Shown here piece after piece: positions 4,466-20,439 of a stretch of 20,439 bases of DNA (positions are counted from its first letter, which is position 1; each line of letters opens with the position of its first letter). The notes beneath the pieces were generated by a model. It was given only the letters and a program-made list of their open reading frames with translations, was not told where the DNA came from and did not search any database. The stretch is from a virus, in the IMG/VR virus record IMGVR_UViG_3300030056_000118, positions 1 to 20,439 of that record, one strand, 5' to 3'. The translations under genes were made by a program, and so were the position numbers.

Positions 4466-4494
4466 TGTTTCCTCCTATGTTGGTTGTTTTACCC
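4466..4494 (-). promoter_or_regulatory. Phage RNA polymerase promoter for the structural operon
   Basis: Read on the minus strand the site contains GTAAAACAACCAACATAGG, very close to the sites at 18871-18898 and 15785-15814 and alignable with the T7 promoter (ending ATAGG, with AAC and CA matches upstream). By analogy the transcript starts at the G at 4475. It lies 75 bases before the first structural gene. Its placement matches a late T7 promoter ahead of the head genes. Confidence 0.82.
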
Positions 4495-6546: not shown

Positions 6547-6776
6547 TTTGTTTCCTCGCGGCGAGTGACCATAAGGTTGTGAACCATGCGGTCGCAGCGC
6601 ATGTCGTAGTGCTTCTGGATGGCCGGGTTGAGTTCAGCCACAACCCCGTCGATGGCCTTGTCGATTGCAGGCTTCAGCGCGGTGAGCACGTCGCCCTCAA
6701 GGCGCTTGCGCAGTTCCTGCACGAATAGGACGAGGAGCTGGCGGCTCTCCATGTCGTCGTTAATGCTCAGGCTCAT
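6543..6776 (-). CDS. Small helical protein of unknown function (77 aa)
   Basis: A 77-residue, predicted largely alpha-helical protein (RQLLVLFVQELRKRLEGDVL, then KPAIDKAIDGVVAELNPAIQ) with no membrane segment or recognised domain. The start overlaps the Rz1-like stop as ATGA and the end overlaps the next gene in the same way. Its place directly after the spanin pair could hint at lysis, but nothing in the sequence says so. Confidence 0.65.
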   Translation of the reverse strand: MSLSINDDMESRQLLVLFVQELRKRLEGDVLTALKPAIDKAIDGVVAELNPAIQKHYDMRCDRMVHNLMVTRREETK

Positions 6777-7033
6777 TGGGTTCCCTTCAGTTCGTTGGTT
6801 GCGCTCTGCTTGTCTGCGTTGCAGCGTTGCAGTGCGTCCTCCGCCTGACCGGCGAAGTTGAATAGGTCTCCACCCGTACTCGTCGGGTCATCCACCAGGG
6901 CATCCAGGGATGCGTGGCGGCCCTCAATGGCGGTCGGGGAGAGGAAGGCGCTGCTGCTTCGCACGGTTGTATGCGTCGCGCAGCCCTGTAGGCAGAGGGG
7001 TATCAAGAAAAGCAGCAGTCGGATGATCTTCAC
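6773..7033 (-). CDS. Rz1-like outer-membrane spanin lipoprotein
   Basis: An 86-residue lipoprotein with a signal peptide (MKIIRLLLFLIPLCLQGC) and lipobox LQGC, so lipidation is predicted at C18. The mature part would sit at the inner face of the outer membrane and pair with the Rz-like protein to fuse the membranes at the end of lysis. The gene begins within the Rz-like gene in another frame (6924-7033 shared), the classic nested Rz/Rz1 layout. The start is GTG at 7033 with GGAG about ten bases upstream. There is no holin or endolysin next to it. Confidence 0.82.
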   Translation of the reverse strand: MKIIRLLLFLIPLCLQGCATHTTVRSSSAFLSPTAIEGRHASLDALVDDPTSTGGDLFNFAGQAEDALQRCNADKQSATNELKGTQ

Positions 7034-15440: not shown

Positions 15441-17885
15441 TTAGGCAAAGAAGTACAGGGACGATTCGACCAAGGAGAGGTCGAGGTCGCCGCAGGGCGG
15501 GAGTTCGGGAAGTTCGACAGCCACTTCAGCCGGAAGCTGAGCGGCCAGTTCGTTGCGGAAGTCGGTGAGGACTTCGCGGGTGTACTGCTCGTGGAAGGCA
15601 GCTCTCAGTGAGGCGGCCAGCACGTCGGTGTCAGCCGCGTGGGCTGCGTAGGAGTCGTGGATCATGGCGAAGTCCGTAATGCCGTTCTCAAGGGCAGTGC
15701 AGACGGTGAGCATCAGGTGGGCCGCATCACAGGAGTGGATGAAATTGGGCGAGATGCCCAGGGCCTGTCTGCGTGAATCGAGTTTTGTTCCTTCTACGTT
15801 GGTTGTTATACGTACCGATCTCCCCCCAATGTGCGTTTCTACGCGGGTTCCGAGGGTTTCGCGGTACTCCTGGAGCACCGGGAATCCGGCCGGGGTTGTC
15901 CAGCTCACGGGCATGTCGCCCTTTGCTGCAACCTTCGCGGAGGCCTTCAGCCAATCCATCGCTACACGAGCGGCGATCACCACCTGACCAATGGCATCCC
16001 ACAGCACACCAGCAAGGTACGAGGATTCCTCGTGGGCCTGCTTGTCCCGTTCGTTGCCCATCTTCTCCATGATCTGCCCGCGCATGCCGGCCTTGGTCAC
16101 GCCGTAGGGCAGGGTCATCACGGGGCGCTTCACGATGTCACGGGAAAGCTGACCGTCCCAGCGCGCGGCCAGAGGACAGCCACCTTCGGCTTCCTTCTTG
16201 ACGCGCGCGGCGGCGACCTTCATCACCTGTGTATAGATGTCGGCGGGTTTCTCCTGGGGGATCAGGTTGGTTGCCTTGCCACCGATGGGATCACGCAGCA
16301 TGGCGCTGAAGTTCTGTAGGCCATTGCATGAGCCGTCGAGGGCGATGGGGAGATGCGACACGTACTCCGTGCCCATCATCTTGTAGCCAGCCCACTCGAA
16401 GCAGGCGGCCAGGGCCGACCAGGGGGCGTCAGGTTCCTTTGCTGGGTTGCTGGGGTTCGTTGCCCAAAAACGTTGACCGTCCATCGGGTCGAGCGCGGAG
16501 TCGAGAATCTGATCCTCGTGATCCTTCACCCACTGGATGCGCTCCTCGAACGTCAGCTTGTCGATACCGAAGACGTTCGCGACGTGGATGGCGAGCCAGC
16601 GGGCACCCGAAGCGCCCAAGGGTTTCCCCTTGGCGAACGTCAGCAGCGCCTTGGCTTGGTCGTCGCCCTGGGGATTCAGGGTTCCCGGTACGGGATAGAC
16701 GCGACCTCTGAAGTCCAGCGAATGCGGGAAGTAGATGGCCTCCTCGGGGGCGAAGCGGGCGGCGAGGGCGATCTTCTGCGCTGCCGAGACACGCTGGGAG
16801 GTGGAGCGGGCGTTCTCCTCATATATGTCAGCGCGCTTGCGCTTCCAGGCTTTGAACTCCTCGGGCTGCTCTACCTTATATGTGTCCATGTCGAACGACG
16901 GCAGTCCCGGCAGCTCGATCAGGTCACGGGATGGCAGGCCGGCGATGCCGCCGCCAGCTTCCCAGGCGTCCTGCATGACCTGGAGGACGGAGGTGTTCAC
17001 TTTCCAGGCGGTTGACTGGATCGCGTTGATCGACTGGTACACGGCCGGCATGTCCACGTTGCCCAGCTCGCGCAGGTAGGACTTGTTCCGGGTACGCACC
17101 AGCGGCACGAGACCACCAGCATCAGTCAGGTAGCCGCCACCCTTGGAGGACACCCAATCGACCGGGCGAACCAGCATGGGCATGCGGATCGGGCTGAAGT
17201 GCGCAGCGGCATCGTGGGCCTTGTCGAGCCATTCGAGCACCTGCTGGGTGCCCCTCAGGAGCGTGCGGCGTCTGTCCTGGCCGTGGCTGGAGTCGAGGAA
17301 CAGCTCGGCGAACCCTGTGGATTCGATGAACAGCTCGACCATTTTCATGCCGAAGTGAACGCCGTCGTAGCCGGGGAACGCGAACTGCTCCAGCTCGACG
17401 CGGCGGGTGGCCGCTTCCATGACGTTGCGGGAGTGGCGCTGGGAGGTGCTCTTTTTCAGGACACCCTGGATGTGCTTGTAAAGACCGGGGGAGACCTCGC
17501 GGAATCGCGAGTAGTTGATGGAGTCCTCAATCGACGTAGCGATGGCCTCAGCGACCGACTGCACGCGGGTGTCCCTGTTCGAGACGGCGTTAAGGCAGTG
17601 GCGGACGGTGATGTAGGCGATCTCGGCGGACGGGAACTTCTCGACCCAGCGAACAGCGGTGTGCTTCTTGCCGGGTTTCCCGTTGCGAGCTTCGGACACG
17701 AAGGTGTCGATGGCTGCGGAGAGGGGGGTAACGCTTTCGGTGATGAGGCGGCGGCCGGGGCCAGAATCGGCCTCGTCCTGGCGTCCGCGTTCCTTCTTAT
17801 AGCGGTCAACGCCGAGGGTCAGAGATTCTTCTTCGAGGGCGAGCTGTCTGTCGCGGAGGGACGGGGTGTTCTGCACGGTATCCAT
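15441..17885 (-). CDS. Single-subunit DNA-dependent RNA polymerase (T7 gp1-like)
   Basis: The 814-residue polymerase that would transcribe middle and late phage genes from its own promoters. Catalytic motifs match T7: ALDGSCNGLQNFSAML (D517, equal to T7 D537), VKRPVMTLPYG (K586 and Y594, equal to K631 and Y639), SPNFIHSCDAAH, and MIHDSYAAHAADTD (D744, equal to D812). It ends YFFA, like the FAFA C-terminus of T7. It is about 70 residues shorter than T7 (883), mostly toward the N-terminus. TAGGAG precedes the ATG. A terminator separates it from the upstream antirepressor-like gene, and a promoter for this enzyme lies within its own 3' region. Confidence 0.97.
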   Translation of the reverse strand: MDTVQNTPSLRDRQLALEEESLTLGVDRYKKERGRQDEADSGPGRRLITESVTPLSAAIDTFVSEARNGKPGKKHTAVRWVEKFPSAEIAYITVRHCLNAVSNRDTRVQSVAEAIATSIEDSINYSRFREVSPGLYKHIQGVLKKSTSQRHSRNVMEAATRRVELEQFAFPGYDGVHFGMKMVELFIESTGFAELFLDSSHGQDRRRTLLRGTQQVLEWLDKAHDAAAHFSPIRMPMLVRPVDWVSSKGGGYLTDAGGLVPLVRTRNKSYLRELGNVDMPAVYQSINAIQSTAWKVNTSVLQVMQDAWEAGGGIAGLPSRDLIELPGLPSFDMDTYKVEQPEEFKAWKRKRADIYEENARSTSQRVSAAQKIALAARFAPEEAIYFPHSLDFRGRVYPVPGTLNPQGDDQAKALLTFAKGKPLGASGARWLAIHVANVFGIDKLTFEERIQWVKDHEDQILDSALDPMDGQRFWATNPSNPAKEPDAPWSALAACFEWAGYKMMGTEYVSHLPIALDGSCNGLQNFSAMLRDPIGGKATNLIPQEKPADIYTQVMKVAAARVKKEAEGGCPLAARWDGQLSRDIVKRPVMTLPYGVTKAGMRGQIMEKMGNERDKQAHEESSYLAGVLWDAIGQVVIAARVAMDWLKASAKVAAKGDMPVSWTTPAGFPVLQEYRETLGTRVETHIGGRSVRITTNVEGTKLDSRRQALGISPNFIHSCDAAHLMLTVCTALENGITDFAMIHDSYAAHAADTDVLAASLRAAFHEQYTREVLTDFRNELAAQLPAEVAVELPELPPCGDLDLSLVESSLYFFA
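15785..15814 (-). promoter_or_regulatory. Phage RNA polymerase promoter inside the RNA polymerase gene
   Basis: The minus strand reads GTATAACAACCAACGTAGAAG, nearly the same as the sites at 4466-4494 and 18871-18898. By analogy the start is the G at 15794. It lies in codons 691-700 of the polymerase and would drive the small genes and SSB. The codons used (ATA, ACA, GTA, AAA) are AT-rich and unlike the GC-rich choices around them, which suggests selection on the DNA itself. Confidence 0.75.
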
Positions 17886-17952: not shown

Positions 17953-18729
17953 TCAGGCGGCCAGAGCGGCTTCCTGCAAGCGGCGGCGGACTCGGTAGAT
18001 CAGCTCCGTCCCCTTGCCGGTGACGTGCGTGCGGCCCAGGGCGCGACCTTGGCTGACCAGGGTCTTCTGGATGAAGCAGCCGGCGCGCAGGTACTTGGCG
18101 TAGGCGAAGACGCTGTTCTTGCCGTCCCGGTAGAGCACCTTGGCGTCGATCAGCATCTTGGTGAGCTGCTGGTCAGTCATGCCGAACCGCTGGCCGGCTT
18201 CCCGCAGGCACATGGTCGTGCCGTCAGCCATGGTGGCCTCGGCCAGCTCGACCTTCGGGCGGTCGGTCTCGATCTTGGCGGCCAACAGTAGGCGTTGCTT
18301 CTCCGACTCCATCCCAAGCTGAAGAAGCTCCAGGGTGGAGAGAGTTGCGACGGGGGCGGCGGGGGCCGGCGTGTCCTTCACGCGGTTCTCTTTGAAACCC
18401 CGCAGGACATCCAGGTGGAAGCGGGGGCTGATCCACATGGCGTAGCTCAGGGCGAGGTCTTCCACTGCGTAGGTGCCGCCGTACCGTCCCCGGCTCATCT
18501 CGACCGGATTCTTATTGCTGGAATCCCAGCCTTTAGAAACTTCCTCCACCAGCTCCACCGTCGAGGTGAGCTGCATGAAGTTCGAGGGCTTGTGGCGCTC
18601 CAGCTCACCGGCTGCGCGGTGGAGGTCGTTCAGGCAGTACCGTCCCTCAGCGTCACGACGGATCGGTGTGCCGAGGATCACAGCGATGACGGTTCTGGTG
18701 GCGGCGGTAGCGTGGGCGATCAGATTCAT
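17953..18729 (-). CDS. KilA-N / KilAC antirepressor-like regulator
   Basis: A 258-residue two-domain DNA-binding protein of the phage antirepressor class. The N-terminal KilA-N domain (about residues 15-110) has RRDAEGRYCLNDLHRAAG, KPSNFMQL and GRYGGTYAVEDLALSYAMWI, then FHLDVLRGF. The C-terminal KilAC/ANT domain (about 150-250) has PKVELAEATM, CLREAGQRFGMTDQQLTKML and LYRDGKNSVFAYAKY. It is the first phage gene inside the right attachment end. The ATG at 18729 has AAGGAG six bases ahead. A GTG at 18765 would start inside a leader hairpin. Strictly lytic T7 lacks such a gene, so a role in the lysis/lysogeny choice is plausible but inferred. Confidence 0.9.
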   Translation of the reverse strand: MNLIAHATAATRTVIAVILGTPIRRDAEGRYCLNDLHRAAGELERHKPSNFMQLTSTVELVEEVSKGWDSSNKNPVEMSRGRYGGTYAVEDLALSYAMWISPRFHLDVLRGFKENRVKDTPAPAAPVATLSTLELLQLGMESEKQRLLLAAKIETDRPKVELAEATMADGTTMCLREAGQRFGMTDQQLTKMLIDAKVLYRDGKNSVFAYAKYLRAGCFIQKTLVSQGRALGRTHVTGKGTELIYRVRRRLQEAALAA

Positions 18730-18754
18730 GGTCTTCTCCTTGGGCACATAAAGA

Positions 18755-18782
18755 AGCCCCGGCACCGTGAGGCACCGAGGCT
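18755..18782 (-). promoter_or_regulatory. Leader hairpin ahead of the antirepressor gene
   Basis: In RNA from the minus strand, AGCCUCGGUGCC and GGUGCCGGGGCU form a 12-bp stem (allowing two G-U pairs) with a UCAC loop, followed by UCUUUAU. It resembles a weak terminator or attenuator and lies just before the ribosome site of the antirepressor gene. It contains two copies of the GGCACC motif (+ strand) also repeated near the attachment site. Confidence 0.55.
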
Positions 18783-18876: not shown

Positions 18877-18898
18877 CCTAGGTTGGTTGTTTTACCCA
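18871..18898 (-). promoter_or_regulatory. Phage RNA polymerase promoter upstream of the early genes
   Basis: The minus strand reads GGTAAAACAACCAACCTAGG, sharing AACAACCAACNTAG with the sites near 4475 and 15794. The predicted start is the G at 18878. Because it precedes the antirepressor and RNA polymerase genes, the polymerase could drive its own expression. Confidence 0.8.
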
Positions 18899-19001: not shown

Positions 19002-19059
19002 CGGGTTTAGGTTCTGACGGCTAATCCCCGTGCGGGTTCGAGTCCCGCCTCTCGCACCA
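19002..19059 (+). pseudogene. 3' remnant of tRNA-Leu (UAG); attachment-site end of the prophage
   Basis: From the anticodon loop TTTAGGT onward the sequence is a good tRNA-Leu: a variable arm closing ACGG/CCGT, a T-arm GCGGG TTCGAGT CCCGC, and the acceptor end CTCTCGCACCA. The 5' half is missing. No GCGAGAG acceptor strand lies upstream, and the bases before the anticodon loop (GCGGG) do not pair with TCTGA after it. This is the duplicated 3' end left by integration into a tRNA gene. The intact copy should be at the other end of the prophage. Confidence 0.85.
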
Positions 19060-19146: not shown

Positions 19147-20439
19147 ATGCAGGTTTCGGTTGAGAACATCGGCTCGCTCGAGCGCAAGCTCACGGTGAAG
19201 TTTCCCGCGGAGCGGTTCGAGACGCAGGTGAGCGCGCGCATTGCAGAAATGGGTCGCACGGTCCGCCTGAAGGGTTTTCGCCCAGGCAAGGTACCCACCA
19301 CGGTGATCAAGCAGCGCTTCGGCGCGCAGGTGCGTGGTGAGGTGTTGTCCGACCTGATCGGCAGCACGCTGCGTGAAGCGGTGGAGCAGGAAAAGCTGCA
19401 GCCGATCGCGAATCCGGCGATCAATACCACCGGCCAGCCGGAAAATGGCGAAATCGCCTACACCGCCACCTTCGAGGTGATGCCGGAGTTTCCTGCTGTC
19501 GATGTGGCCGCACTCGAGATCAACCGTACGGTAGCAGTGGTGACTGACGCCGATATCGACAAGATGCTGGAAACCCTGCGTCAGCAGCGCCGCAGCTTCG
19601 ACGAAGTCGACCGCGCCTCGATCGAGGGCGATTTCGTGATGTTTGAATACTCCGCCGAGGCCGGTGACTACCGCTTCCCGGCGGAAGGCCTGGAGCGCGC
19701 CGGTAGCGTGCTTGGCTCGGGTACCTTGTTCAAGGCACTGGACGAAGCGCTTGTCGGCCGCAAGACCGATGACAGTTTCGACGCTGAAATCGCGTTTCCT
19801 GCGGATTTCCGTAACGACCAGCTGGCTGGCAAGACCGCCAAGGTCAGTTTCAAGATCATCAAGGTGCAGGAGCCGAAGCTGCCTGAGATCGACGGCGAGT
19901 TCGTCAAGCTGTTCGGTATCGACGATGGCGACCTGGAGACTTTCCGCAAGGAAGTACGTGCGAACCTGGAGCGTGAACTGAAGGCTGCGCTGATGGCGCG
20001 CCTGAAGTCCGAAGTGGCCGAAAGGCTGGCTGACGCACATCCCGAGCTGGATGTGCCCAAGCTGATGGTGCAGTCGGAAGCGCAGAACATGGCTACCGGC
20101 AGTGTGCCGCGCGGCCAGCAACCGCCGCCGCAGCTGATCGAGGCGGCGACGCCGATCGCGCGCAAGCGAGTGATTGCTGGCCTGCTGATGGGTGAAATCG
20201 CCCGCAAGCAGGAGCTCAAGATCGACCGCAAGCGCGTTGCCGAGCAGCTTGCCGCGATCGCCTCGACCTATGAGGAGCCGGAGAAGGTCATTGAACTCTA
20301 CAACGGTGACCCCCAGTTGATGTCTGGGCTGCAGAATCGCGTGATGGAAGATCAGGTGGCCGAATGGGTGGCAGAACATGCTAAAACCACCCAGCAGGAC
20401 CTGAGCTTCGATGACGTTATGCGGCCAGCCAACGCCTGA
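19147..20439 (+). CDS. tig: Trigger factor, ribosome-associated chaperone and prolyl isomerase
   Basis: The complete 430-residue bacterial trigger factor, which binds the ribosome near the exit tunnel (via L23) and shelters new chains. The N-terminal ribosome-binding domain carries the signature GFRPGKVP at residues 43-50. An FKBP-like prolyl isomerase domain follows (about 150-245, FVMFEYSAEAGDYRFPAEGL, then FPADFRNDQLAGKTAKVSFKI). The C-terminal helical arms run to the end (LFGIDDGDLETFRKEVRANL, VMEDQVAEWVAEHAKTTQQD). AGGAG precedes the ATG and the TGA is the last codon of the window. It is host sequence: clpP and clpX commonly follow in proteobacteria but are beyond the edge. Confidence 0.97.
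   Translation: MQVSVENIGSLERKLTVKFPAERFETQVSARIAEMGRTVRLKGFRPGKVPTTVIKQRFGAQVRGEVLSDLIGSTLREAVEQEKLQPIANPAINTTGQPENGEIAYTATFEVMPEFPAVDVAALEINRTVAVVTDADIDKMLETLRQQRRSFDEVDRASIEGDFVMFEYSAEAGDYRFPAEGLERAGSVLGSGTLFKALDEALVGRKTDDSFDAEIAFPADFRNDQLAGKTAKVSFKIIKVQEPKLPEIDGEFVKLFGIDDGDLETFRKEVRANLERELKAALMARLKSEVAERLADAHPELDVPKLMVQSEAQNMATGSVPRGQQPPPQLIEAATPIARKRVIAGLLMGEIARKQELKIDRKRVAEQLAAIASTYEEPEKVIELYNGDPQLMSGLQNRVMEDQVAEWVAEHAKTTQQDLSFDDVMRPANA

Follow-up and report, generated by a model that had tools for sequence, protein, structure and literature searches.

Organisation of the locus

The window, by which is meant the whole 20,439-nucleotide stretch analysed here, is a 20.4-kb fragment of a T7-like prophage. 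Its minus strand carries genes for capsid, connector, exonuclease, DNA polymerase, helicase-primase, RusA, SSB and RNA polymerase, with the middle genes coming directly downstream of the RNA polymerase gene. The features discussed below are these, in window coordinates:

4475..4492, minus strand: P3, promoter-like copy GTAAAACAACCAACATA followed by G and then GAGGAAAC, upstream of the head-tail connector and late genes
17885..15441, minus strand: T7-like single-subunit RNA polymerase gene, 814 aa (open reading frame and Pfam PF00940)
15780..15863, minus strand: specificity beta-hairpin, residues 675-702 (AlphaFold2 model and alignment to T7 739-770)
15783..15815, minus strand: codons 691-701, with rare A-ending codons (codon reading and usage counts)
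15795..15811, minus strand: P2, promoter-like copy GTATAACAACCAACGTA, -17 to -1, with an inferred +1 at 15794, inside RNA polymerase codons 692-698
15810..15845, minus strand: predicted base-reading residues 681, 683, 690 and 692, corresponding to T7 R746, N748, R756 and Q758 (phmmer alignment and column variability)
17953-18765, minus strand: KilA-N/ANT antirepressor-like gene, between P1 and the RNA polymerase gene
18878..18895, minus strand: P1, promoter-like copy GTAAAACAACCAACCTA followed by G, upstream of the KilA-N/ANT and RNA polymerase genes, with syntenic copies in relatives
19030-19059, plus strand: apparent 3' end of a tRNA-Leu-like gene, read by eye, preceding tig
19147-20439, plus strand: host trigger-factor gene (tig), at which the window ends

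Rhodanobacter and Dyella relatives adjoin the same tig gene, and the tRNA-Leu-like 3' end together with tig is the probable attachment site common to the prophages of both genera. ARAGORN reported no complete tRNA within the window. The clade to which the fragment belongs consists of T7-like prophages of Rhodanobacter-type bacteria. In close relatives the KilA-N/ANT gene either goes undetected or has its place taken by highly diverged versions, of 50% and 30% identity.

The polymerase and its specificity hairpin

Assignment of the polymerase rests on a Pfam RNA_pol match (E 2.6e-116), a PDB sequence match to T7 RNA polymerase (E 1e-134) and a Foldseek match of the predicted structure to the T7 enzyme (E 1.2e-55, TM 0.86). 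Both the model and the alignment place a specificity beta-hairpin between the FPV.Q.Y and GI.PNF motifs. Its strands, as predicted by AlphaFold2, span residues 675-686 and 689-702, with a Gly-Gly tip at 687-688. This model was built from 47 diverse homologues and has a mean pLDDT of 88.9, with a lower value of about 65 for block 691-700; an earlier model from 15 close sequences reached a pLDDT of only 48.

In T7 RNA polymerase, R746 is one of the residues that read bases. Within the T7 specificity loop, the limits of which are about 739-770, N748, R756 and Q758 have also been reported to read promoter positions -11 to -7 (PMC5937735). The phmmer alignment pairs S690 with T7 R756, R692 with Q758 and T700 with S767. 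The first-pass annotation had counted back without gaps from the GISPNF motif and set codons 691-700 opposite T7 758-767, which is off by no more than one or two positions. Its placing of these codons in the promoter-recognition loop also survives the structural check, since residues 689-702 form the second strand of the modelled hairpin. No other window of the polymerase protein varies as much as the hairpin, and the predicted base-reading columns 681, 683, 690 and 692 are among the most variable in the protein (0.54-0.69, against a mean of 0.15).

Three promoter-like copies in the window

A promoter near 15794 within the polymerase codons had been proposed at first pass, and its coordinates and codons are correct. 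Codons 691-700 read GTA, CGT, ATA, ACA, ACC, AAC, GTA, GAA, GGA and ACA, and the extended P2 element, GTATAACAACCAACGTA followed by GAAGG, occupies 15811..15790 on the minus strand (codons 692-699). Three sites in the window match TAWAACAACCARCNTAG, all on the minus strand, whereas 100 shuffles gave an expectation of 0.00. A flank-only pattern blind to the core finds exactly the same three sites, with a Markov expectation of 0.05, and the core is ACAACC in the loop, P1 and P3 alike. The copies fulfil the criterion for promoters of the T7 group, namely a repeated conserved element, ending in TA followed by G, on one strand and upstream of gene blocks. By analogy with T7 promoters, the G after TA is inferred to be +1.

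P2 covers the second strand of the hairpin, beginning at the codon of the Q758 equivalent (692). This is the only codon of a predicted base-reading residue to overlap P2, at -18 to -16 and outside the core. The core itself writes residues 694-696 (694 and 695 for positions -12 to -7), same-strand neighbours of the predicted base-reading residues. It had been suggested that changes in the loop which alter recognition would thereby alter a promoter. An automatic link of this kind is too strong: because codons 681, 683, 690 and 692 adjoin the core and only 692 touches P2, a change in a base-reading residue alone leaves the core as it was.

The loop copy follows the promoters of its own genome

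Relatives were collected from viral contigs and bacterial genomes down to about 58% polymerase identity, with whole phage sequences for many; some records are fragments without P1 or P3. The comparison set comprises 17 viruses, counting phages and prophages together; about 13 different promoter cores occur among them, and all 17 carry P2 in an unchanged codon register. Genomes of the clade have P1 upstream of the polymerase gene, where the contig reaches it, and P3 upstream of the late genes. The exception is L118, in which no P3 was detectable; a deletion is likely, because the match to its connector gene does not begin until residue 87. In most relatives P3 was located through TAGGAGG, independently of the loop, whilst in G024-G026 and G031 it was found by similarity to the loop, with support from synteny.

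A plain best-match scan of 18-mers had no power to discriminate, chance matches in GC-rich DNA being common. Three other tests took its place, based on the flank-only motif, on own against foreign promoters and on synonymous choice. With the flank-only motif, each clade genome yields 2-4 sites, the expectation being 0.05-0.15 in the four genomes for which it was calculated, and 11 genomes outside the clade yield none. At the threshold used the motif also recovers the loop copy in 8 of 11 genomes, missing those of G005, G006 and G007. The loop core agrees with the P1 and P3 cores of its own genome at 5.59 of 6 bases and with foreign ones at 2.13 of 6, a value for own promoters that none of 300,000 permutations reached. 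Across the whole polymerase gene, the loop was the best match to the other promoter copies of the genome in 31 of 31 tests. The genomes are kin and not independent, so these and the other probabilities overstate the certainty.

The agreement is apparent in individual genomes. Loop, P1 and P3 all carry AACACA in G002 (the first two identical to those of Rhodanobacter ANJX3), AGTGCG in G003 and AGTCGG in G006; ACACGC is common to the loop and P1 of L118, and ACTCAC to the loop and P3 of G005, for which no P1 is recorded. The Dyella cores are GTGGCG in the loop, ATGGCG in P1 and GTGGCA in P3. Even the -5 base co-varies, being A at the three sites of the window and G at all three of Rhodanobacter A1T4. 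When the loop is left out of the tree, repeated switches are seen among close relatives, and four polymerases that are 87-91% identical carry three different cores. Among these four, loop residues differ by 30-48% where the cores differ, against 9-12% elsewhere, and at only 2 of 23 positions where the core is the same.

The matching is not perfect. In G019 the loop core is ACGCAC and that of P1 and P3 ACACGC, whilst G018 has ACAGTG in the loop, ACACGC in P1 and ACAGGG in P3. The initiation bases are GAAGG or GATGG at P2 and GGAGG or GGGGA at the other copies. Most members of the clade retain TA at -2/-1 and G at +1. Some sites deviate at +1; in G006 and G007, P2 lacks the TA, and P1 deviates likewise.

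Codon choice and synonymous constraint

The break from surrounding codon usage remarked on in the first-pass annotation is real: ATA, GTA, GGA, ACA and AAA are rare in these polymerase genes, making up 4.7% of Ile, 8.9% of Val, 11% of Gly, 10% of Thr and 16% of Lys codons, respectively. The comparison of synonymous sites in relatives that it had called for did not refute its reading: among 400 windows of 10 codons, codons 693-702 rank first for synonymous conservation, with a score of 0.93 where the gene averages 0.585. Furthermore, in 11 of 13 genomes no other synonymous choice at codons 693-697 would spell the genome's own promoter better (Fisher P about 1e-33, 10 core types being combined). 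That value comes from the 13-genome test; in a second test the combination is undefined, as TTA is absent elsewhere in the G024-G026 gene set.

Synonymous conservation, codon choice and the match to the genome's own promoters together lead to the conclusion that the DNA of the loop is selected as a promoter, although its promoter activity is inferred from sequence. Selection on the DNA itself had been proposed from codon usage, and the divergence of the loop copy in step with the other promoters of each genome, a test not foreseen at that stage, upholds it.

Reach of the arrangement

Polymerases only 58-59% identical to the Dyella enzyme have a loop promoter in the same register but of very different sequence. 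The cores of these sister lineages are unrelated (AGTGGTCA and ACAGTGGC), and the loop matches a P3 about 11 kb downstream: ATTTAGTGGTCACTATT and ATTTAGTGGTCACTCTT in G025, and ATATAACAGTGGCTATA and ATATAACAGTGGCTCTA in G024, the distance being 10.95 kb in both. No loop copy was seen in a group at 54-56% identity, nor, in a survey that was not exhaustive, in LUZ100, S2B, BB8, jiawei, a group at 44% identity, Sphingomonas prophages and others. De novo counting of repeats in distant phages returned mostly codon-biased repeats. One phage of the 44% group, G016, repeats CTAWAACCCACCTCTCGCAG on the polymerase strand at 16083, 21697, 24647, 25913, 26290 and 38819, one copy lying just after the polymerase stop; this is likely to be a promoter family of that group.

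Comparison with known T7-like systems

In T7, phi1.1A and phi1.1B lie after gene 1. Like these and other promoters of the T7 group, P2 is, by inference, a promoter of the own-polymerase type near the end of the polymerase gene region, and it resembles T7 class II promoters in feeding DNA-metabolism genes and in having a 17-nt upstream element that ends in TA before G. T7 promoters, by contrast, lie outside the specificity-loop codons and write no polymerase residues. The Pseudomonas phage LUZ100, the polymerase of which is 38.6% identical to that of the window, shares a temperate T7-like layout, with a tRNA-Leu near its integrase and a mapped phage promoter, phi1, upstream of the polymerase gene as P1 is here (PMC10134795). 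It differs in that phi2 and phi3 lie at 6707-6801, past the polymerase stop (6686), and none of its promoters is in the loop. Promoters placed just past the stop, as in LUZ100, are probably the older arrangement.

When polymerase specificity was changed in the G78-KIRV T7 evolution experiment, matching changes were selected in several promoters (PMC6171733). In co-evolution of the T7/T3 type, however, promoter and loop are separate DNA, whereas in the clade described here one promoter is loop coding sequence. The clade thus shows a new form of the T7 polymerase-promoter system, one of the promoters being embedded in the reader itself. No published report of a loop-embedded promoter was found in the literature searched, a search that left most subscription papers outside its coverage.

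The role of P2

P2 is very probably a true promoter that the phage's polymerase itself uses to serve the middle genes, though the firing of P2, its start site, its reading by this polymerase and the dependence of the middle genes upon it are all inferred. It would drive the middle genes downstream, a role held in T7 and LUZ100 by promoters just past the polymerase stop. About 20 bp would then carry two messages, one being loop residues 692-698 and the other the loop's own target, positions -17 to -1. A switch in specificity would require P1, P2 and P3 to change together, and at P2 residues 694-696 would be rewritten in the process.

The T7 primary origin uses the phi1.1A/B promoters adjoining gene 1, and the position of P2 near the end of the polymerase gene resembles it. 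P2 might likewise serve mainly to prime DNA replication, middle-gene expression being secondary, and the constraint on the DNA would look identical. Such a main role seems unlikely, as the middle genes lie directly downstream and transcription is the simpler function; the two roles are in any case mutually compatible. Still less probable is a function as decoy or roadblock, in which the polymerase would bind P2 within its own gene for autoregulation or pausing and start no productive transcripts. The location of P2 would suit this, as would the departure of the initial transcribed sequence GAAGG from P1 and P3 and, in two phages, that of the melting region, but binding alone would not need the TA at -2/-1 and the G at +1 that most members keep, and P1 of G006 and G007 deviates in the same way as P2. 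That the resemblance is mere coincidence, or follows simply from conservation of the loop as protein, can practically be discounted: although the motif is short, AT-rich and within a gene, and some GC-rich 18-mer best matches at other places in the genome come just as close when only mismatches are counted, residues 694-696 vary freely whilst the DNA tracks the promoters of each genome and synonymous choice is promoter-optimal, so that this explanation is already refuted unless the alignments are wrong.

Far more tentatively, the loop segment may be considered as a transferable lock-and-key cassette, in which recombination of one short segment would move a new specificity together with a working cognate promoter. 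Exchange could then take place between prophages competing for the tRNA-Leu/tig site, allowing the clade to switch specificity often.

How a polymerase and its many promoters alter their specificity in concert has long been asked of T7-like phages. A single family of close relatives now offers about 13 matched loop/promoter pairs, and in it one of the promoters and its reader are physically fused. The pairs constitute a training set for a loop-to-promoter code and candidate orthogonal polymerase-promoter pairs, and permit a direct test of whether the fusion eases or constrains specificity switching.

Additional promoter-like sites

Two further kinds of site were observed, which, were the cassette idea true, would be relics of earlier specificities or sites for the polymerases of rival phages. 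P3b is a non-cognate promoter-like site 46-80 nt upstream of the cognate P3 in G010 (14390, plus strand) and L153 (1454-1470, plus strand), with cores ACCGCC and ACCCGG. P4, a fourth promoter-like site, is on the opposite strand relative to the polymerase gene and occurs, always as minus, at 37973 in G002, 35614 in G004, 35546 in G005, 43231 in G006, 3053 in G007, 35806 in G010 and 35072 in G019. Its flanks are constant and its core does not match the loop of the genome's own polymerase; in G005, the one case examined, it is antisense to the lysis region. The P4 core of G007, ACAGTG, is the loop core of G018.
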